NCBI GenBank assembly: GCA_024345305.1
Contig: BRON01000007.1
Span: 682,001-746,000, forward strand
DNA from: Mrakia gelida
Lineage: Eukaryota; Basidiomycota; Tremellomycetes; Cystofilobasidiales; Mrakiaceae
DNA length: 64,000 nt
Direction: 5' to 3'
Made by a program: the position numbers and the translations under genes. Numbering within the stretch: the stretch's first letter is position 1; each line of letters starts with the position of its first letter. Shown piece by piece: positions 12,143-59,309 of this stretch. The notes beneath the pieces are model-generated. The model saw only the letters and a program-made list of their open reading frames with translations. It ran no database searches and was not told where the DNA came from.

Positions 12143-13996
12143 ATGATCGTCCCCACCTCCATCGTCCTCACCGTCCTTTCCCTCGTCTCCGTCGTCTCCG
12201 CTGCCCCCGTCGAGGCTCGAGGATTGAGGAACGGTGCGAATCCCCTCGCTACTTCCTCTGCCATTGAGGTCATCACCGCCCGAGGAGTGAGTCTTTGACG
12301 AGAAGGAGGGGAATCGGGAGCGACGCGGGTCGACGACCTTGGTTTTTTTAAAGGCTTGTAGCTCACCTCTTGCTTTGTTTTTCCTCACTTTCTCTTCGCC
12401 CAGCTCCGAAACGGAGCCAACCCTCTCGCCACCTCCGTTGTTGAGGTCGAGGCTCGAGGTGTGAGTCCAGGAGAAGGAGAAACGCGCGTCGTGGGTGATC
12501 TCGCGCGTCTTCAAACTTCGAAGCTCATTCCCAACTCTCCTTCCACTGCTATTCATCTCCACAGCTCCGAAATGGCGCGAATCCTTTGGATGCTACCCCT
12601 ACCGCCATCGATGCTCGAGGAGTGAGTCTCCTTCTCTCTCTAAACGATGAAAAGGACGCGACCGCGACGCGAGTGTCCCTTCGCCTTCGAAGCTCATTCT
12701 CTTCCTCCTTTCCCTCTTTTCTCGTCCCAGCTTCGAAACGGGGCCAACCCCTTGGCCACCTCTTCTTCCATCCCCGAGATTGGAGCCCGAGGAGTGAGTC
12801 TCGAGCCAGGAGGACGTGTGAAGCGGGGAGGAAGCACGAGTGCGTCGTCCGCCGACTTGAACTGACTTTTCCTTCCCCCCTGCCCCATCTTCTTCCTCCC
12901 TTCCTCCCCTACCTTCTGTCGTATCATCCGTAGCTTCGAAATGGTGCGAACCCGCTTTCGGCTGAGCCTACTGAGGTCGCCGCTCGAGGAGTGAGTCAAG
13001 ACGCGTCCTCTTCCTCTCGCGAACTTCAACTGACCGTCCCTCCTTCCCGTCCCCTTCTTCACTTTTCCTTCGCCTTTCCTTCGCTCAGCTTCGAAACGGA
13101 GCGAACCCCTTGTCTGAGGAGTCCGTTGGATCTCGAGGAGTGAGTCTCCTCGTCTGAGAACAAGAAAAGAAGAGCGAGACGACGCGTTTGACCGAATCGA
13201 CTTTGAACTGACTCCCCCGCCCTCCCTTCTTGCCCTTTCTTCGCTCTTTCTTCATCCAGCTTCGAAACGGAGCTAACCCCCTGTCTGAGGAGTCCGTTGG
13301 ATCTCGAGGAGTGAGTCTCCTCGTCTGAGAACAAGAAAAGAAGAGCGAGACGACGCGTTTGACCGAATCGACTTTGAACTGACTCCCCCGCCCTCCCTTC
13401 TTGCCCTTTCTTCGCTCTTTCTTCATCCAGCTTCGAAACGGAGCTAACCCCCTGTCTGAGGAGTCCGTTGGATCTCGAGGAGTGAGTCTCCTCGTCTGAG
13501 AACAAGAAAAGAAGAGCGAGACGACGCGTTTGACCGAATCGACTTTGAACTGACTCCCCCGCCCTCCCTTCTTGCCCTTTCTTCGCTCTTTCTTCATCCA
13601 GCTTCGAAACGGAGCTAACCCCCTGTCTGAGGAGTCTGTTGAGTCCCGAGGAGTGAGTTCTGTTGTCCAAGAACGAGCAGAGAGCGTTCGGCGACGCGTT
13701 CGTCCTCTTCGACTTTCCTCTGACTCCCTCGCCCCCCCTTCTTGCCCTTTCTTCGCTCTTTCTTCATCTAGCTCCGAAATGGAGCTAACCCTCTGTCTGA
13801 GGAGTCTGTTGAGTCCCGAGGAGTGAGTCTCAATGTCCGGAAACGGGAGGAAGAGAGCTGGCGACGCGATCGTCACTCCGGAACTTCAAGCTGACTCTCG
13901 GACTCCCCTCCTTCGCTTATCGTCTTGCTTTTCTTCCCCCAGCTCCGCAACGGAGCCAACCCCCTCGAGGTCACCCCCGTTGAGGTTTCCGCTTAA
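12143..13996 (+). CDS. Secreted repeat-peptide precursor: signal peptide plus eleven LRNGANPL units, one per exon
   Basis: Eleven exons give 228 residues. Exon 1 (12143-12286) begins MIVPTSIVLTVLSLVSVVSA, a clear signal peptide. Then comes APVEARG and the first LRNGANPL. Exons 2-11 start at 12404, 12565, 12731, 12934, 13089, 13260, 13431, 13602, 13772 and 13943. Each begins exactly with LRNGANPL and, except the last, ends with ARG or SRG. Between them lie variable, mostly acidic spacers (ATSVVEVEA, DATPTAIDA, SEESVGS). The last exon reads LRNGANPLEVTPVEVSA then TAA. All junctions are phase 0, so units can be added or skipped without frameshift. There is no cysteine, KR site, CAAX end, membrane segment or GPI tail. 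The layout (signal peptide, conserved core, acidic spacer, basic residue) is that of a multi-copy peptide precursor. Cleavage after the Arg of each unit is inference. I recognise no described family. No UstYa-like or peptidase gene lies next to it. Confidence 0.85.
13089..13771 (+). repeat. Tandem 171-bp exon-plus-intron repeat within the repeat-peptide gene
   Basis: Four consecutive modules start at 13089, 13260, 13431 and 13602. The first three are exactly 171 bases and the fourth is 170. Each is a 51-base exon for LRNGANPLSEESV(G/E)SRG plus its downstream intron. The introns after the exons at 13089, 13260 and 13431 are identical by eye over all 120 bases, so these copies arose very recently, probably by unequal crossing-over. 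The exon at 13089 differs from the next two only in synonymous positions. The fourth module has a diverged intron. Older, more diverged modules lie on both sides. Confidence 0.9.
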
Positions 13997-15464
13997 ACTG
14001 TGAGTGTCCGCTTCGACGTTCAGCTCGAACGAAGGAACGACGCGTCCTGACTTCTTATTTTTCCTTTCCGCCCTCCAGATGACTTCCCCAGTCTGGTTTC
14101 GCTACGTCTCTCTTCCATCTCTTCCTACCGATCATCGGTAAGTCTTCCTCTCCCTCACCTGGGTCCTTCTCCGACGTTCATTGGACACGAACTGACCCGT
14201 CCTCTCGTTCGCTCCTCAGGTCCTGAAAACTCGCCTTCCACCAACATCCCTCCTCCCCCTTCGCTTTCTCTTACCTTACGATCTCGACGTCCATAGACTA
14301 CTCCCGGCACTTTTGTTTCTCCAACTCTCTACTACCTCTTTAGACTCGATTCCCCTTCGACTCTCCTCTCACGCTCTTTTACGTCCCCCTTTCAACGAAC
14401 CCACCCACCTAGTCTTCTTCCTCCTCGCCGCCTTCTGTTCTTTCGTTCTTGGGTTCGTGTGTTTATCTCTTCTCTCGCTTTAGTCTTTCTTGGCCTAACC
14501 TAAACCTTGGTGTTTACTCGCCCCTACGCTCCTTCGTTTTTCTTTTCGCTCAGCATCTCTGCTTTTCGTTCCTCCCCTCCCTTTTGCTTCGAATCGTTTG
14601 TTCGTTTTGCTGCTTCAGTTCGTTCTGCTACTTACACCTTTTCTTTATAACTTAGTTTGGCCGTCGCTATGGAATAGTTTTGGTTGCCGATGTCTGCTGG
14701 GTCTCTCGAGGAAAGGAACGAGGAAGAGTCGACTCGGAGGTCGAACGAGGTCGCTTTTGCAGCTGCCTCCAGCCTCTTGGTCTGAATCAGTTCTCGATTA
14801 CTTCGCCGGTGAGACTCATCTGTGAGGCTTACAGATAGCTGAGGACCGATGGTCTTCCTCAACTGATAAGATACTCGAGGCTCGAAAGGAAGGCTTTCGA
14901 CGACGCGCTGGAAGCTTTGTTTTGTTGACACGCGCGTTCTTCGACAGCTTGTTCTCTATCACTGCTGGTGTCGAGATCTGATTTACCTCGATCGAACCAG
15001 TATTGATCTTGAGTATCATCTCGAGAAAGTCGGAAAATTTCGCACATCTCAGACAGCCGATGCGAGCCTGCTGGAGAGGAGGAAGCCCAGGCTCCAACGA
15101 ACTCCGTCGAAAGCTCGCTTCTTCTTGAGCTCTTGTTTTGGATCCAACCACGACTCCCAAAGCATCACTTCTCTTTCGCTCTTACGGACGCCATCATCTC
15201 TTCGGACTCGTCTCTCTGTCTTGACTTCGGACCAGAACTTGGAACGTGAGTCAGTCGAGAGCAGCGAGGGGAGGGACGGAGAGAGAGGGAGGGAAGGAGG
15301 TTGAGCTCAGCCCCGGTTCCTTCCCTTCTAAGTCCTTCCTTCTCGCCACCGTCCTTCCCCGATTCGAGGTCTAGAGACGTTGGAGCGTCTCTCTATACAG
15401 AGCTCACTTGCTGATGTCGCTCTTGCCAGGTCGAACGGGTTTGAAATCACCAGCAGAGCGAGCC
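13997..15464. other. 3' region of the repeat-peptide gene with two apparent 3' UTR introns; upstream region of the kinase
   Basis: Just past the TAA there is a complete intron signature at 14000-14078 (GTGAGT, CCTGACT, CCTCCAG) and a second at 14138-14219 (GTAAGT, ACTGACC, CCTCAG). The sequence to about 14700 is T-rich and looks like a 3' UTR. Near 15246 a GTGAGT, with an acceptor near 15429, suggests a 5' UTR intron of the kinase gene at 15465. No coding ORF is supported. Confidence 0.45.
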
Positions 15465-20032: not shown

Positions 20033-21271
20033 CTAGCCTTCGTGATAGACCCTCAAATCCAACCCCTCCACCTTCTTCAAAACTTCCAACCCTTCCTCGT
20101 CGATCTTCTCAGCTCCAACCCCGCCAAACCACAGCGTCGACAACCCCTCCGGGTCGTTGTCCCCGTCGTTCTCATCGAACCCCCACTCTCGAGACAGCAC
20201 CATCTTCACCACGGCCTCTGCCGACACCTCGTAGTTGCCAAGGAGCAGAAGCGTATCGAGGAAAGGACAACAATTCTTTTGACCTGGCTTCCTCGTCAGA
20301 GCCTCAATCAACGCGTCCGAGATGGGTCCTTCGAGGATGAGGTCGTCCAAGCCCCACGCCTGTCGTAGATGAGCGATGAGCGACGTTTCGGTGTAGGTTC
20401 GGTCCTTGATGAAGGTGGCCTGGAGGCGTCGGAGGCCATTGACGTTGGGAGGATGGGGATGAGGTGGGAAGAGGAAGGTCGAGAAGGGGACGTGTTTCGG
20501 CAGGTTGAGGCAGCGCAGCCTCGGGGCGAGGAAGATGGGCGACTTCCAGTCTCCGGCGGAGTCGTATTCGGTTCCGGGGCTGAGATGAGAGTCGATGGTG
20601 TCGAGGTCGGGGAGGGAGATGGTTCGGGAGGAGGAGGAGGAGGAGGGCGCAAAGGTGACGGGAGAGTTAAGGAGTTTGAGGGTTTGGAGTTTTGGTGTTC
20701 GCTGGAGGAGGGAGAAGATGGAGTGGTCGTGGGTGGGTTTGAAGTTCCTGAGTTCGAGGTAGGTGAGATTGGAGAGGAGGATGGGGGACGAGGGAGCGGT
20801 GATTCGACGAAGGTTGGAGTCCGTGTTCGTGAGATGGAGGTCGGTGAGGAGGAGCGACGACGCCAACAGGTCCCAAACTGCTTCCAGACCGTGAATACGA
20901 TTGATGGGAATCGACAAGGAGGTCAACGACACGAGGTTGCCTTGAATCCTATCGAAGAGGAGCTTGAGGACGATGGGCCCGCTCTTCACGTCGAGGCTGA
21001 CACTTCTGGGCGCTCCCTTCTCCAACATACAGTCCATCTTCTTTGCTCCCTCTTCCTTGGAGATCCAAACGCGTCCCCAGAAGCTGCGATATTTGAGGAA
21101 GATCTCCCTCCATCGACGACTGACCGCGACGAGGATGAAGGAGTCCTTGGGATCGACGCATCCCTCGGGATCTCTTTGAACGAAGGAGTGACCGATTCTG
21201 AGGATGAGCTCCGTAGGAAGCCTGTCGATGTAGGCTGGAGAGAGGTGGGGAGTGGAGAGGACGGCGGGCAT
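20033..21271 (-). CDS. F-box-like / leucine-rich protein (cassette copy 1)
   Basis: A single coding exon gives 413 residues. It starts MPAVLSTPHLSPAYIDRLPT; PTELILRIGHSFVQ and FILVAVSRRWREIFLKYRSF form an F-box-like N-terminus. Leucine-rich segments follow: LVSLTSLSIP, SLLLTDLHLTNTD, LSNLTYLELRNFKPT and TPKLQTLKLLNSP. Such proteins are usually substrate receptors of SCF ubiquitin ligases; the target is unknown. I chose the ATG at 21271 over an upstream in-frame one because an intron acceptor (TTCCAAG) lies two bases before it on the minus strand, with AGCTGACC and GTGAGC upstream, indicating a 5' UTR intron. A diverged paralogue sits at 56076-57302. The gene is head-to-head with the coiled-coil F-box gene at 21636. 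Confidence 0.75.
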   Translation of the reverse strand: MPAVLSTPHLSPAYIDRLPTELILRIGHSFVQRDPEGCVDPKDSFILVAVSRRWREIFLKYRSFWGRVWISKEEGAKKMDCMLEKGAPRSVSLDVKSGPIVLKLLFDRIQGNLVSLTSLSIPINRIHGLEAVWDLLASSLLLTDLHLTNTDSNLRRITAPSSPILLSNLTYLELRNFKPTHDHSIFSLLQRTPKLQTLKLLNSPVTFAPSSSSSSRTISLPDLDTIDSHLSPGTEYDSAGDWKSPIFLAPRLRCLNLPKHVPFSTFLFPPHPHPPNVNGLRRLQATFIKDRTYTETSLIAHLRQAWGLDDLILEGPISDALIEALTRKPGQKNCCPFLDTLLLLGNYEVSAEAVVKMVLSREWGFDENDGDNDPEGLSTLWFGGVGAEKIDEEGLEVLKKVEGLDLRVYHEG

Positions 21272-21635
21272 GGCTGGCTTGGAAAGGATCGAGGGGAAGG
21301 GGAGGGCAAGAGGGAGAGCGGAGGGGAAGGAGAGGAGGTCAGCTCGGTCTGGCGGCCATCCCAAGAGAGAGAATCGAACGATAGAGCTCACTACTGGATG
21401 TAGAAGAGTATGTCCTAGAGAAAGCTCTTGCTTGTGTTGGCTGGCTGAGAAGGAAAGTGCGAGGAGAAAGGAAGGAAGGGAAGGGAGGGAGATGGTCGAA
21501 GTTCGAGCTCAACTTGAGTCCCCTGAGCTCTTCCTTCTTTCGTTCCCCAACCGTTTCGGACTCAAACTCGAGTTTTCATCTCTTCTTCCAGCATCCTCAC
21601 TCTTCCATTAGGACTCCTACCCTCCTCTCCCTACG
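21272..21635. promoter_or_regulatory. Divergent promoter of the F-box gene pair (copy 1)
   Basis: The 364 bases between the two start codons are clearly similar to 57303-57658, which separates the second copy of the pair. The longest identical stretch I see is 40 bases at 21528-21567, the same as 57552-57591. Conservation outside coding sequence suggests shared promoter or leader function, or simply recent duplication. Confidence 0.6.
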
Positions 21636-23282
21636 ATGTCGTACGAGTCGCCTTTGAACGAAGGGAAGAGCTCGACGGACGAGAAGGTGAGCTTCGACTT
21701 CCCTCCTCCTGCCCTCCTCTCTCACTGTCCCTCTGCCTCGAAGGTCCAGGCAGACCTTCCACTTCTTCTTCGACTCGCCTGGACCTTTCTCTGATACTCA
21801 TCATCTCTCTCTTTGCTTCCTCTCTGTCTCGTCTCGAACCAGCTCGCCGCCAGCAACTCCCAGACCATCCAACCCGCCCTCCCGCCTCCTCCTCCTCCTG
21901 CTCCCCTCGACCCTCCTTCTTTGACCTCCACCTACTCCCATGGGAATGCCTTGCCGCCTCCATCACCTTCTCACGATCAATGTCAGACCATGGTCTCACA
22001 GATCACCCAGCTCTTCTCCATCGTCGGTCGACTCTCATCCGAGAACGAAGCTCTCAAAGCTCACAACCAGACGGCCATCGCTCGTCTCTCGTCAGAGAAC
22101 GTTGAGCTCAGGAAGAAGGTCGAAACGCTCGAGAAGACAGTCGAGGATCAGGGTATGGTCATCGCCGAGGTGTCGAGGACTGCTGTTTCCAATGGTCACT
22201 GGCTTTGGGAGGGAGGGAAGGATCAGCTTCAGAGAAGGGGAGGCGAAGGGGAGGTCGACGGTCGATGGCTCTGGAGTCTGGTTCGTCTTGCCTCCTCTGT
22301 CTCTCTCGTAGATATCTTCGAATCAAGCTCACTCTCGCATCTTCTATCTTCTCGTACCACAGGAGAAGTACAGACCTCAACCCCCTCGACCTCGAACTGG
22401 TCCTCCTCCCTCCCTCGACTCCCTCCCCGTCGAGCTCATCGACATCATCCTCTCCCTCGTCGACTTCCAGGACCACCTCGTGCTCTGCACCGTTTCCTCT
22501 GCGCTTCTTCAGCGAGCCTCGGTCTTCGTTTACGGCAACATCATCGAGCTCTCTTCAAGCGAGGCGGTCGCGTTCGTGTTAGCGAGGGTTCGTCTCGCGC
22601 CCGATCTCCTCTCCCTTCCTTCATTTCGTTCCTGACCTCTTCCTCCCCTCTTTTTTCTTCTACATAGCTCATTCAGATGCCATTATCCTTCACCCGGATC
22701 CGAGCTCTCCTGCACCCTAAAGAGATCCAGCTCAACTGGCACGGCTTTCAATCGACCGACTTCGTCGCCCTCCCCTCCTCCTCCTCTTCCACTCGAACCT
22801 TCCCCATCACCTCCCTTCTCGTCTGCACTCCTCACTCTCCCTCTCAGTGCATGCTCGAATGGTCCCCCGTCCTTAGATTTATGAACCCCGTCACCCTCCA
22901 GTTGGGCGACATGGAAGGAGAAGGCACTCACGAACCACCCACCGTCTTCGACGTCAACGAACCCGACCTCGCCTTCATCGACGGCTGGACTCAACTCAGA
23001 AGGTTCATCGCAGTCGGTCCAGACTCCGTTCCGGTCAATCTCTTCGGGGACTTCGCCCTTCGAAAACTCATTCAAGCCATCTCCCCTCAGAGAACCGTTT
23101 CCGTTTCGATCTTGACGATTTACTCGGACGGAAGAGGACGGAGGGAGGAGTGGCTTATGGGCGAGGGGGTGGCTGATTGGGTAGAAAAACAAACGAAGGA
23201 GGTAGATTTGGGTAGAGAGACGGTCATCTTCCGGGCTAAAACCAGGGCGGTAGCTGTGAACGTACCGGAGCTGGAGATCTAG
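21636..23282 (+). CDS. Coiled-coil F-box-like protein (family copy 1)
   Basis: The start MSYESPLNEGKSSTDEK at 21636 is followed by an intron. The next exon has a proline-rich stretch (PALPPPPPPAPLDPP) and a leucine-zipper-like coiled coil (SSENVELRKKVETLEKTVED). It then reads GHWLWEGGKDQLQ and GRWLWSLV. After another intron comes the F-box-like helix pair SLDSLPVELIDIILSLVDFQ / VLCTVSSALLQRASV. The last exon starts LIQMPLSFTRIRALLHP and ends NVPELEI at 23282. Paralogues lie at 44556-46150 (minus) and 57659-59309 (plus, with a stop). The family is therefore locally amplified. A role as an SCF adaptor that dimerises through the coiled coil is inference. No other recognised domain was seen. Confidence 0.72.
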
Positions 23283-44555: not shown

Positions 44556-46150
44556 CTACATCCCTGCCTTTGTCCCCCTCAACTCCGCACGGAAGAAAGC
44601 CCGACTTCTCTCTGGGTGCGATGGAACCACTCTGCTGATAGCGGAGGAGACGTCGCGATCGGGGATCTTCTCGGCAAGTTCAGGCCTCCCATCGAGGAAG
44701 ACGGAGACCAATCGCGTTTCCAACCTCCTTCCCGACGCCAACTCCCTCAGTCGCTCGAAGAAGGCGAAGTCCCCACCGACGATTGGGACCGACCCTGAAC
44801 CATACGCGAGGAAGAGTTCGATCCGCGTCCAGATATCGAGGAAGGAGACGTTCACCCCCAAAGGCCAGTCAAAGGTCGCGGGTCGATGATCAGGCGACTG
44901 ACGTCGACTTCCGAACTGGAGGGTTTTGGGATTGAGGAAGGAAAAGACTGGCGACCACTCGGCTGCGAGGGGAGGAGAGGAAGGGACGGAGAGGACTGCG
45001 AGGATGTCGATGGGAATGGGGTCGTGATGGGTTTGGATCTGAGAGAGGGGATCGAGGTGGGCTGCGTTGAAGTTTATTGAGGAGAGGTGGATGTGTTTGG
45101 GAAGAAGGAGCCAGCGAATCCGATCATAGGACGAAGGTGTATCGGTCAACTGCTCGCAGTCGTAGAGTCAGAACCAGGTCAGGCCCCGAAGAAGAAGATC
45201 CAAACGCGTCGACGAAGAAACGAACGCACCCTCGAAGTGAAGAAGAGAACAGTGTGCTTCGAGCGAAGCGATATCGAAGATCCGTAGATCTCGTTCGAAG
45301 CTCGTTGGAGGACTTTGAGGGAGACCCTGCAGAGTGCGACGAGCTCGGGTAGATCGAGGAGGGAGAAGATGATGTCGATGAGCTCGACGGAGAGGGAGTC
45401 GAGCGAGGGAGGAGGGCCAGTTCGAGATCGAGGGGGTTGAGGTTTGTAGTGCTCCTGTGCAACGAAAGCAGAGGATCGACGGCGGTGAGCATTCCTCGAG
45501 AGAGAGCTACAATATCGAACGAGGAGAGGGGGACGAACCAGACTCCAAAGCCATCGACCGTCGACCACTCCTCCTCCTCCTCGAGACCTTTCCAGCTGCT
45601 CCTTGCCTCCTTCCCAAAGCCAGTGACCACCAGATACAGCCGTTCTCGACACTTCGGCAATGACCATACCCTGATCCTCGACCGTCTTCTCCAGCGTTCC
45701 AACCTTCTTCCTGAGCTCAACGAGCGAGGCGACGTGAGCTTCGTTCTCGGACGAGAGTCGAGCGATTTCAGCTTTGAAAGCTTTGTTCTCTGAGGCCTGT
45801 TGAGTAGCGAGGGAGAAGAGCTGAGCGAGTTGGACGGCGACCGAGACCTCAGGATGAGAAGGAGGGTTGGAGGAAGAGGAGGAAGAAGGGTGCTGAGGCG
45901 GAGGAGGAGGCGGAAAGGCAGGTTGATTGGGTTGGGAGCTGCTGGCGACGAGTTGATCCTAGACGAGACCAGAGGAAGCAAAGAGAGAGACGATGAGTAT
46001 CAGAAAAAAGTCTAGACGAGTCGAGAAAGAAGTGGAAGGTTTGCGTGGACGGTCAAGAGAGGGAGAGAGGAGGGAACGAGGAGGGACGTCGAAGCTCACC
46101 TTCTCGTTCGTCGAGCTTTTCCCGTCGTCCAAATACGACTCGTTCGACAT
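44556..46150 (-). CDS. Coiled-coil F-box-like protein (family copy 2)
   Basis: Starts MSNESYLDDGKSSTNEK at 46150 and has the same exon layout as the copies at 21636 and 57659. It has a proline-rich stretch (PAFPPPPPPQHP), a coiled coil (SLVELRKKVGTLEKTVEDQG), GHWLWEGGKEQLERS and the F-box-like SLDSLSVELIDIIFSLLDLP. An intron follows TSR (donor GTGCGT, acceptor GCGAGCAG), and the last exon begins LTDTPSSYDRIRWLLLPKHI and ends AELRGTKAGM. The reading frame is intact throughout. Unlike the other two copies it has no leucine-rich F-box partner. Instead it faces a BTB gene 200 bases away, an arrangement that again puts two likely ubiquitin-ligase adaptors head-to-head. Confidence 0.7.
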
Positions 46151-56075: not shown

Positions 56076-57302
56076 CTAATCGAGTCGCGAGTATTCGTTT
56101 ATCTTCAACTTGCTCTTCAACAAATCTACCTCTTCATCCTCGAACGCGTCCAGCGCACTGTCCACGAGATCCAGGTTTTCCAACTTCCCACACCTCCCTC
56201 TCTCCCAACCTTGCTCCCTCGCCAACACCAACCTGACCAGCGCTTCTCCCGTCACCTCGAAAGACCCTTCAATCTCCAAGCGACGAAGAAGAGGACACAC
56301 CACCTCCTGGGCGTCCTCTTCCTCCATGCCCGACGCGAGCGCGTCGATGGTCTCGTCGCTAATCTCGAGGGATCCAATTCCGAGGTGGACGAGGGAACGC
56401 ATCTGCTTGAGCTGATCGATGAACAGCGATTCGTCTTCGATGGGATCCTGCCCTGCGATGAAGATCTCTCGGAGGTTTGAGACGTTGGGAGGATGGGGAG
56501 AGGGAGGGAAAAGGAAGGTTTCGAAGGGTGCGTCCGTCGACACGTTGTGAGCCAAGTCTTCGAGCCTCGGGAGGTGGAAGATTGTGGAATCCATGTCGAA
56601 AAAGGTGGAGTTCTCGGTGTAGATCTCCTGGAGTTTCGGAAGGGAGATAATGGAAGGGTCGCGAGGAGTGGCGGAGGTGGACGTGAAGCTGACTGAGCAT
56701 CTGACGAGTGTGAGCGAGAGGAGGTTTGGAGTTTGCTGGAGGAGGTCGTAGATGGAGTCGTCCTGGCTGGGATTGAAGTTTCTGAGGATGAGGTCGGTCA
56801 GGTTGGAGAGGGGGTTGCGGGAAGAGGGAGTAGGGATTCGACGAAGGTTCCCGTCCTGGTTTGAGAGGTCGAGGTGGGTGAGGAGGAGGGAGGATGCGAA
56901 CAGCCTCCATACCGCTTCCAGTCCACGAGAACGGAAGAGGGGAGTCCTCAGGGAGGTCAAGGAAGCGCCGTTCCTTCGGATCCTGTCGAAGAACATCTTG
57001 ACGACCTCCTCTCCGACGTTGGGGCCGAGGAAAACTCTTCTCGGAGCTCCCTTCTCCAACAGACGGTTCATCTTCTTCTCTCCTTCTCCCTGCGAGATCT
57101 GCACATCTCCCCAGATGATGGGATCCTCGAGGAAGACCTTCCTCCAACGACGAGAGACTGCGACGAGCGCGAACGCATGCCTTGGGTCGTCGCCTTCGAG
57201 AGATCGACGAACGACGAAACGACCGATTTGGACGAGAATCTCGGTGGGAAGGGAGTCGATGTAGGCTGGGGAGAGGCGGGAAGGGGAGAGGACGGCGGGC
57301 AT
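56076..57302 (-). CDS. F-box-like / leucine-rich protein (cassette copy 2)
   Basis: A single coding exon gives 408 residues, starting MPAVLSPSRLSPAYIDSLPT at 57302. The F-box-like region PTEILVQIGRFVVRRS and ALVAVSRRWRKVFLEDPIIW is followed by leucine-rich segments (GASLTSLRTP, SSLLLTHLDLSNQDGNL, NLTDLILRNFNPS, TPNLLSLTLVRCS). It aligns along its whole length with 20033-21271 but is clearly diverged. As there, an intron acceptor (CCACTCCAG) lies two bases upstream of the ATG, so a 5' UTR intron is likely. Probable SCF substrate receptor, target unknown. Head-to-head with the copy at 57659. Confidence 0.75.
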   Translation of the reverse strand: MPAVLSPSRLSPAYIDSLPTEILVQIGRFVVRRSLEGDDPRHAFALVAVSRRWRKVFLEDPIIWGDVQISQGEGEKKMNRLLEKGAPRRVFLGPNVGEEVVKMFFDRIRRNGASLTSLRTPLFRSRGLEAVWRLFASSLLLTHLDLSNQDGNLRRIPTPSSRNPLSNLTDLILRNFNPSQDDSIYDLLQQTPNLLSLTLVRCSVSFTSTSATPRDPSIISLPKLQEIYTENSTFFDMDSTIFHLPRLEDLAHNVSTDAPFETFLFPPSPHPPNVSNLREIFIAGQDPIEDESLFIDQLKQMRSLVHLGIGSLEISDETIDALASGMEEEDAQEVVCPLLRRLEIEGSFEVTGEALVRLVLAREQGWERGRCGKLENLDLVDSALDAFEDEEVDLLKSKLKINEYSRLD

Positions 57303-57658
57303 GGCTGGAGTGGAAAGGATTGAAGGGAAGGGAAGGAACGAGAGCGCACGAAGGGGAGGAGATGGTCAGCTAGCGGTCTGGCGGTCCTCCCACAGGGACG
57401 AACATCTGGTTACAGAGCTCACCTCTGGATGAAGAACAGTAGGTACTAGAGATATCTCTTGCTTGAGTTGGCTGAGAAGATTGAGTGCGAGGAGGAAGGA
57501 AGGAAGGAAGGTGATCAGGTCGCAGTTCGAGCTCAACTTGATCTCGTCGAACTCTTCCTTCTTTCGTTCCCCAACCGTTTCGGACTCAAACACGTGTTTT
57601 CGCCCTCCTTCCAGCATCCTCATCTTCCAACTAGGACTGTCATCTCCCTCTCTCTACG
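57303..57658. promoter_or_regulatory. Divergent promoter of the F-box gene pair (copy 2)
   Basis: Clearly related to 21272-21635, including a 40-base identical stretch (57552-57591). It contains the 5' UTR intron of the minus-strand gene and the leader of the plus-strand gene. Confidence 0.6.
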
Positions 57659-59309
57659 ATGTCGAACGAGTCGTCTTTGAACGAAGGGAAGAGCTCGACG
57701 ATCGAGAAGGTGAGCTTCGACTTCCCTCCTCCTTCCCTCCTCTCTCCATCCCTCGACCGTCCACGCAAACCTTCCACTTCTTTCTCGACTCGTCTAGACC
57801 TTCCTTTGATACTCATCATCCACGTATCTCTCTCCTCTGGTTTCATCTAGGACCACCTCGTCGCCGGCAGCTCTCAATCCAAACAAGTCGCCTTTCCTCC
57901 ACCTCCTCCCCACGATCCTTCTTCCTCTTCCTCCATCCCTCCCTCCCATCCCGAGGTCTCGGTCGCCTTCCAACTCGCACAGCTCTTCTCTCTCGTCACT
58001 CAGAATACCTCGGAGAACCAAGTCTTCAAGGCTGTAATCGCCCGTCTCTCGTCCCAGAACGAAGCTCAAGCGGCCAGCATCACGCTCCTCAACTCTCGAG
58101 ACGAAGCTCGCGTCGGATCGCTCGCTCGTCTCTCGTCAGAGAACGCTGAGCTGAGGAAGACGGTCGAGGACCAGGGTTTCGCTCTCGCACAGCTCTCGAG
58201 AGTGGCTGCATCCGACGGTTACTGGCTTTGGGAGGGAGGGAGGGACCAGCTCGAGAGGTTGGGAGGCGAAGGGGAGGTCGACGGTCGATGGCTTTGGAGT
58301 CTGGTTCGTCTTGCCTCCTCTATCGCTCTCGTAGAAATTTGTGAATCAAGCTCACTCTCGCATCTTCTATCGCCTCGCACCACAGGAGAAGTACAAACCT
58401 CGAACCCCTCGACCTCGAACTGGCCCTCCTCCCTCGCTCGACTCCCTCCCCGTCGAGCTCATCGACATCATCATCTCCCTCCTGGATCAACCCGAGCACG
58501 TCGCGCTCTGCACGGTCTCCTTCAGACTCCTCCAACAAGCTTCGTCCCAGATATACGGATCTGCCATCGTCCTTCGGTCGAAGCAGGCACTTCTCTTCTT
58601 CACTTCGAGGGTGCGTTCGTCCATTCGTCCCCGCGTTTGGATCTCCTTCTCCTCCCCAAGACCTGACTTGAGTATCATCTTTCACCGGGAACAGTCAACC
58701 GACACGCCTCCGTCCTACAATCGGATCCGCTCGCTCCTTCTTCCCAAACACATCTACCTCTCCTCAACGAAATTCAAAGCAGCCCACCTCGATCCCCTCT
58801 ATCGGATCCGAAACCATCACGACCTCATTCCCATCCACACCCTCGCAATCCTCTCCGCCCCTTCCTCTCATGTCTTTCCAGTCGAGTGGCACTCCATCTT
58901 CAACCTCATTAATCCCCAAACCCTCCAGTTCGGGACTCGACGTTCATCGAGGCCTGACTTCCGACCCACGACCTTCAAGTGACCGCCCAGAAAAGAACTC
59001 TCCTTCCTCAGTCGTTGGACTCAGTTCGATTGCTTCCTCGGGTACGGGCTAGGCTCTGTCCCCATCGCCGGGGGGGAGTTCGCCTTCTTCGACGAGCTAG
59101 CGGTGGGAAGGAGGGTCGAAACGCGATTAGTCTCCTTGTTCAACGACGGAAGGGCTGAAGCCTCCGATGAGGTTTCCGAGCGTGACGTCGAATCCGCTAT
59201 CGGTGGAGTCACTCCATCGGATTCAACGAGGAGCCGAGTTTTCTTCCGCGTTCGACTGAAGGGGAGGAAGGGAGGAGGAGGAGGGTCTAGCTACGCGTCG
59301 AGAACATGA
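57659..59309 (+). pseudogene. Coiled-coil F-box-like protein (family copy 3), premature stop
   Basis: Starts MSNESSLNEGKSSTIEK at 57659 with the family's exon layout: coiled coil (LSSENAELRKTVEDQG), GYWLWEGGRDQLERLG, F-box-like SLDSLPVELIDIIISLLDQP, then after an intron STDTPPSYNRIRSLLLPKHI. At 58980-58982 a TGA follows PTTFK where the copy at 44556 has TGG (PATFDWPLG). In the same frame the family sequence continues after the stop: SRWTQFDCFLGYGLGSVPIA, FAFFDEL and VETRLVSLFNDGRAEASDE, until a stop at 59309. A single nonsense change thus removes about 110 C-terminal residues. The truncated protein would keep the coiled coil and F-box, so it may still act; pseudogene or truncated allele cannot be told apart here. 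Confidence 0.72.

Follow-up and report, generated by a model that had tools for sequence, protein, structure and literature searches.

The 64,000-nt window analysed here is C7:682001-746000 of the 34.9-Mb Mrakia gelida genome (25 contigs). Mrakia is a cold-adapted yeast of the Cystofilobasidiales (Tremellomycetes). At window positions 12143-13996, on the plus strand, the spliced model and its translation predict a gene of 11 exons (gene 1) encoding a 228-residue precursor, laid out as a putative signal peptide, a short pro-piece and 11 copies of LRNGANPL, one per exon, all on the plus strand between 12224 and 13966. Exon 1 covers unit 1 together with the putative signal peptide and APVEARG, which precede it; exons 2-11 encode exactly one unit apiece (51-63 nt; the last has 54 nt including the stop). 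The features are as follows (the arrow marks the presumed cut).

12143..12202, plus strand: putative signal peptide MIVPTSIVLTVLSLVSVVSA in exon 1 (from the translation; hydrophobic stretch with small residues before AP, judged by eye)
12203..12220, plus strand: pro-piece APVEAR, carrying the first V-x-A-R↓G site (junction analysis)
12221..12286, plus strand: unit 1, G-LRNGANPL-ATSSAIEVITAR and the following G, the rest of exon 1 (translation, junctions)
12404..12460, plus strand: exon 2, unit 2, LRNGANPLATSVVEVEARG (translation, as for all exons below)
12565..12621, plus strand: exon 3, unit 3, LRNGANPLDATPTAIDARG
12731..12793, plus strand: exon 4, unit 4, LRNGANPLATSSSIPEIGARG
12934..12990, plus strand: exon 5, unit 5, LRNGANPLSAEPTEVAARG
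13089..13139, plus strand: exon 6, unit 6, LRNGANPLSEESVGSRG
13260..13310, plus strand: exon 7, unit 7, LRNGANPLSEESVGSRG
13431..13481, plus strand: exon 8, unit 8, LRNGANPLSEESVGSRG
13602..13652, plus strand: exon 9, unit 9, LRNGANPLSEESVESRG
13772..13822, plus strand: exon 10, unit 10, LRNGANPLSEESVESRG
13943..13996, plus strand: exon 11, unit 11, LRNGANPLEVTPVEVSA-stop, the last unit, with no terminal Arg
13052..13831, plus strand: tandem array with a period of 171 (one exon and one intron) and 4.6 copies (repeat analysis)

Exon structure and a second gene

The joining of the gene 1 exons is predicted by the gene model. The ten introns, 98-140 nt long, are all in phase 0, with GTGAGT at the start and AG at the end. 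Since six of them contain an in-frame stop and the other four shift the frame, the protein is maintained only if every one is spliced out. No ATG occurs in the 299 nt upstream of the start. Outside gene 1, the GTGAGT...CAG splice pattern was clear in one of three introns inspected in the gene for an MTG2-like GTPase in the window. The product of that gene is 88% identical to the Mrakia frigida protein and 60% to that of Phaffia rhodozyma over 98-100% of the query; among the best 120 of 2947 matches, two Microbotryum entries reach 36-37% over 60-62% of the query. Two candidate 3'-UTR introns (GTGAGT...CCAG and GTAAGT...TCAG) were seen by eye after the gene 1 stop, at window 14001-14221 on the plus strand, and could expose the transcript to nonsense-mediated decay.

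The period-171 array is a recent expansion of units 6-10: introns 6, 7 and 8 are mutually 100% identical and intron 9 is 81% identical to them. With phase-0 introns between all units, copy number could change by unequal crossing-over within introns or by exon skipping while the frame stays intact.

By pattern search we identified a second gene (gene 2) at C7:780615-779698, on the opposite strand and about 84 kb from gene 1. It has 6 exons and a predicted product of 113 aa with 5 cores. Its N-terminus carries a hydrophobic stretch followed by small residues (a putative signal peptide, by eye) and a pro-piece ending in LAAR. The last intron interrupts the last core, which closes at L-stop; this terminal copy, having no residues after GANPL, suggests that the head of the peptide matters and not its tail.

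A relaxed DNA pattern for RNGANP gave 15 matches in the 34.9-Mb genome, all inside genes 1 and 2, the sixteenth core being missed through its split by the last intron of gene 2, while the reversed pattern, used as a control, gave a single match. The LRNGANPL repeats are thus not a chance occurrence. Comparison of the precursor with the genome returned 12 matches, nine in gene 1, two in gene 2 and one on C22; the last of these is weak (E 1.05, 38% identity) and was taken as chance. When the flanks of genes 1 and 2 were compared, all five matches of the stricter listing fell within repeat units. With E allowed up to 1, scattered short matches outside them were added, the best among the matches listed being 58 nt (E 6e-5).

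Elsewhere in the window, three open frames at 21795-22667 (plus), 45179-45958 (minus) and 57851-58666 (plus) share a stretch like SSEN.ELRK..TLEKTVEDQG...WLWEGGKDQL and form a local gene family; in at least two of them an F-box-like SLxVELIDII segment lies within or across the frame. F-box-like genes lie at 20033-21508 (minus) and 56076-57365 (minus), and one lies beside gene 2 (L009 3423-6101, plus). For the 20033-21508 frame the Pfam F-box-like match is weak and falls short of the curated cut-off, and the others were recognised by eye.

Conservation of the core and its occurrence elsewhere

Over both genes the 16 cores represent one protein sequence written in 14 DNA versions. Differences occur at 11 of the 24 nucleotide positions and all are synonymous, giving a pS of 0.86 per synonymous site and a pN of 0 (computed from the 14 distinct versions, with two exact duplicates dropped); the synonymous sites of the core are therefore near saturation. 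Invariance extends to the nine residues GLRNGANPL, and Arg stands directly before them in 15 of 16 cases. Because introns 6-8 are identical, the sameness of units 6-8 is recent and a poor guide to selection, and the evidence for constraint comes from the other units, from gene 2 and from the environmental relative P0121 described below. Introns 1-5 are pairwise 56-69% alike, compared with a mean of 57% (50-65%) for 60 half-wise shuffles, and the cores beside these divergent introns are identical as protein. We considered the introns as a clock, and the similarity of introns 1-5, being near the shuffled background, provides no sharp one. Strong selection on the protein sequence of the core is the simplest account of these data.

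In the protein collection one relative was found, P0121, the only one among 1872 scored candidates in the search with the small precursor. It has 105 residues, comes from a 4,695-base environmental contig and contains three (V)DAR-GLRNGANPM units, with spacers unlike those of genes 1 and 2. The three units lie in a single open frame, so there are no introns between them. Its last core residue is M instead of L, and L is thus not strictly required at this position. P0121 is probably truncated at its N-terminus, and its C-terminal stretch may come from reading into an intron.

No annotated relative of the gene 1 protein was found among the 7998 scored candidates in the length range searched, in a collection that includes a Mrakia frigida protein, and the strings LRNGANPL and LRNGANP were absent from the literature searched. 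The first description of the core as undescribed bears out in these searches, P0121 apart. The RNGANP DNA pattern also occurred in four stretches of viral contigs and six of prokaryote contigs. GLRNGANP is encoded in some frame at seven of these ten loci, once each and unrepeated, and at three not at all; we took them as chance rather than as relatives.

Junctions between units and their possible processing

Arg-Gly ends 15 of the 16 stretches that precede a core in the two genes, and all 15 of these junctions read [V/I/L]-x-[A/S/T]-R↓G, with Ala (seven), Ser (five) or Thr (three) at P2. The exception is ITEG, without Arg, before the last core of gene 2. At other spacer positions V, I or L account for only 6 of 80 residues, a background from which the five C-terminal residues of every spacer were omitted, as were three spacers that do not end in RG. 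The ten distinct junction tetrapeptides would have a probability of about 6e-12 if independent, a figure that overstates the significance because the units share descent. Spacers are 9 to 13 residues long, and beyond the first 20 residues neither protein contains Cys, an aromatic residue, Lys or Gln.

These data modify the first-pass annotation in part. It had described eleven LRNGANPL copies, invariant as protein and differing in codons, as part of a secreted multi-copy precursor with a conserved core; the translation of gene 1 confirms the copies, and gene 2, the near-saturated synonymous sites and P0121 argue for such a precursor. The spacers, said to vary freely, do not do so at their C-terminal ends, where the junction motif recurs. 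Every unit was held to end in ARG or SRG, which applies to 10 of 11, unit 11 ending in VSA-stop. Single-arginine cleavage, then offered as an alternative, would now be the leading mechanism because the aliphatic-x-small-Arg signature is found at 15 of 15 Arg junctions. The interpretation in terms of precursor, core and single-Arg cleavage is thus retained, and that of free spacers is not.

We consider that gene 1 is probably the precursor of a short secreted signal peptide, cut at single Arg residues by a Kex2-type enzyme, and one of two such genes. From the gene models and translations we infer splicing, cleavage, the enzyme, release and signalling as follows. The putative signal peptide would take the gene 1 product into the secretory pathway, where a Kex2-type convertase would cleave each [V/I/L]-x-[A/S/T]-R↓G site behind its single Arg. 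Gene 1 would yield 11 peptides of 17-21 residues, all starting with GLRNGANPL and differing in their tails, and trimming of the trailing Arg by a Kex1-type carboxypeptidase would leave 16-20 residues. From gene 2, three GLRNGANPL-headed peptides and one 26-residue double unit are expected. The predicted masses (computed MH+) are 1586.777 for GLRNGANPLSEESVGS (1742.878 with Arg retained), 1658.798 for GLRNGANPLSEESVES and 1725.840 for GLRNGANPLSDDAPIDT. Once released, the peptides most likely serve as an extracellular signal, with the invariant GLRNGANPL head as the part that is recognised, a signal function being the favoured reading for a multi-copy, invariant, secreted peptide. We know of no receptor for a GLRNGANPL peptide. 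Deletion of genes for Kex2-processed repeat proteins (KEPs) in Coprinopsis cinerea, reported to give no phenotype under axenic conditions (PMC9769878), counts against a signal function.

The genome contains a gene that appears to be of the Kex2 type: the convertase P-domain occurs at one place (C2:3001431-3001835), and the adjacent subtilase domain, on the same strand at C2:3002411-3003148, is among three subtilase matches in the genome. Serine-carboxypeptidase matches number 18. According to PMC8528282, Kex2 prefers Leu or another aliphatic residue at P4 and Arg at P1, whereas P2 may vary, the alternatives to Lys being Arg, Thr, Pro, Glu and Ile. The aliphatic P4 and the Arg at P1 fit this extended specificity of Kex2, and P2 fits it only in part, as Ala or Ser stands there at 12 of 15 junctions and only Thr (3/15) is among the alternatives listed (PMC8528282). 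Further points weigh against a Kex2-type cut. Asp at P3, unfavourable for Kex2 (PMC8528282), occurs in IDAR and IDTR; P1' and P2' are Gly and Leu, whereas four yeast Kex2 enzymes favour acidic and small residues (Ala, Val, Leu) there (PMC2515848). The ITEG junction (1/16) has no Arg at all, the cuts are not followed by Ste13-type XA or XP dipeptides, and the additional Arg within each core (R-G-L-R↓N) is a possible target of the same enzyme. For three C. cinerea KEPs expressed in Pichia, products apparently ending after a single Arg have been reported (PMC9769878).

A different protease, either a monobasic aspartyl protease of the yapsin kind or one like trypsin, could cut the same sites while the mechanism stays otherwise unchanged. 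Each site offers a single basic residue, the Ala or Ser at P2 (12 of 15) lies outside the listed favourites of Kex2, and PMC2515848 has a monobasic-specific yapsin among its references. The fixed aliphatic P4, however, is a feature described for Kex2 (PMC8528282), and we regard another enzyme as unlikely. The products might also be shortened by an additional cut inside the core, made by the convertase or by a second protease, so that they start with NGANP[LM] and RGLR serves as the recognition site. RGLR occurs in 15 of the 16 units and in all three units of P0121, and R-x-x-R is a furin-type motif; against this, P4 would be Arg, unlike the aliphatic P4 of the 15 junctions, and the last core of gene 2 retains GLR without the preceding Arg. 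Such inner cutting seems to us quite unlikely.

The remaining readings fare worse. Secreted repeat proteins with surface roles exist, for example Rep1 of Ustilago maydis (PMC4617103), and the repeat could be structural, in an intact wall or surface protein or in repellent-type peptides. It is not obvious why such a protein would need an invariant 9-residue head, spacers of 9-13 residues and a fixed V/I/L-x-small-R ending, and the lack of Cys, aromatic residues, Lys and Gln argues in the same direction; we hold a structural role to be very improbable. A signal peptide followed by repeated cores between protease sites is likewise the layout of precursors of cyclised dikaritin-type RiPPs, but here Tyr is absent after residue 20 in both proteins and the sites are not dibasic, which makes a dikaritin highly improbable, though the peptides may carry modifications of another kind. 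UstYa/DUF3328 had no match in the genome, a weak result as 14 control genomes were likewise silent. Plant CLE hormones carry the motif R-x-V-P-x-G-x-N/D-P-L-H-N, and R-G-L-R-N-G-A-N-P-L matches its R, G, N, P and L in register. Mimicry of CLE has nevertheless a close to negligible probability: the Pro at position 4 and the H-N end are missing, the residue after the core being A, S, D, E, G or a stop and never H-N, and we do not know of a Mrakia-like yeast as a plant parasite. Kex2-type release of linear signal peptides at single Arg sites stays our preferred reading.

Relation to known fungal precursors

Multi-copy peptide precursors of this general kind are known from the fungal KEPs, and the principle is not new. 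Like KEPs, genes 1 and 2 combine a putative signal peptide, at least three near-identical units, protease sites between the units and the expectation of small secreted linear peptides. KEPs are defined by at least three tandem repeats of at least eight residues, of which the two genes have 11 and 5 copies, and by dibasic sites (KR, RR, KK or RK). No RR and, after residue 20, no Lys occurs in either protein, so published KEP criteria could not find these genes; in place of dibasic sites there are single-Arg sites with an aliphatic P4, and each gene 1 unit but the first has an exon of its own. The in silico cuts of Le Marquer et al. were placed at KR or RR and, failing these, at KK, and the authors allow that cleavage at unusual sites is possible in catalogs without KEPs (PMC6339444). 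Umemura's survey used KR, KK, RK or RR (PMC7329392). The latter found Tremellomycetes to be poor in KEPs, with 1.00 per strain, and linked this to yeast-like growth; all 46 basidiomycete strains without KEPs belong to this class (PMC7329392). On the basis of their sequences, genes 1 and 2 would work like KEPs and are filed here as such by mode of action, not as members by the published dibasic definition.

Several other systems show partial likeness. The repeat effector Rsp1 of Ustilago maydis (260 aa), close to the gene 1 product in size and plan, contains eleven hydrophilic repeats, each 18 or 21 aa long and separated by protease motifs, and differs, by description, in that the motifs are putative standard Kex2 ones and the repeats are called imperfect (PMC4617103). 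Fungal effectors processed by Kex2 at a pro-domain (K2PP) through LxxR sites share a single-Arg extended Kex2 motif with aliphatic P4, but their cleavage frees one protein of its pro-domain, whereas in gene 1 eleven sites separate repeated peptides (PMC8528282). Ascomycete alpha-pheromone precursors (MFalpha1, ppg1 type) are also multi-copy precursors of secreted peptides, whereas genes 1 and 2 have neither KR, in agreement with the first view that this is no classical KR precursor, nor Ste13 XA/XP dipeptides. Trichosporon oleaginosus is another member of the Tremellomycetes. The alpha-pheromone-like KEP of this yeast gives a peptide with Cys and Trp (PMC6339444), and it bears no resemblance to the LRNGANPL core. 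The class does therefore contain some KEPs. No genome match was found for STE2, although 14 control genomes were silent too, so this absence is weak.

Farnesylated basidiomycete pheromones differ in having a CaaX end, whereas genes 1 and 2 end in VEVSA and GANPL, respectively, with no CaaX and no Cys after residue 20; the initial exclusion of such a pheromone holds. Two STE3-type pheromone receptor genes lie about 38 kb apart (C16:465013-466017 and C16:503471-504508) and may mark a mating-type region with two receptors. Cryptococcus neoformans is also a member of the Tremellomycetes, and to our knowledge the sequence of its peptide Qsp1 does not resemble GLRNGANPL, nor do we know of a multi-copy layout for it. 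Qsp1 is alike in being a short signalling peptide that a yeast secretes (PMC7537855).

We put forward, tentatively and with doubt prevailing, that with GLRNGANP[LM] a so far hidden class of peptide hormones in Tremellomycetes has come into view for the first time. Multi-copy precursors of this class would carry only single-Arg [V/I/L]-x-x-R sites and could be split into short exons, one per copy. Dibasic KEP searches, and probably gene callers, would miss such genes, and the scarcity of KEPs in Tremellomycetes (PMC7329392) may then in part reflect a blind spot of the method. If this is true, basidiomycete yeasts would possess a conserved peptide signal that is invisible to both dibasic KEP surveys (PMC6339444, PMC7329392). 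The combination of [V/I/L]-x-x-R with one unit per exon would then provide a search recipe for further precursors, and the core itself can be directly synthesised and tested.
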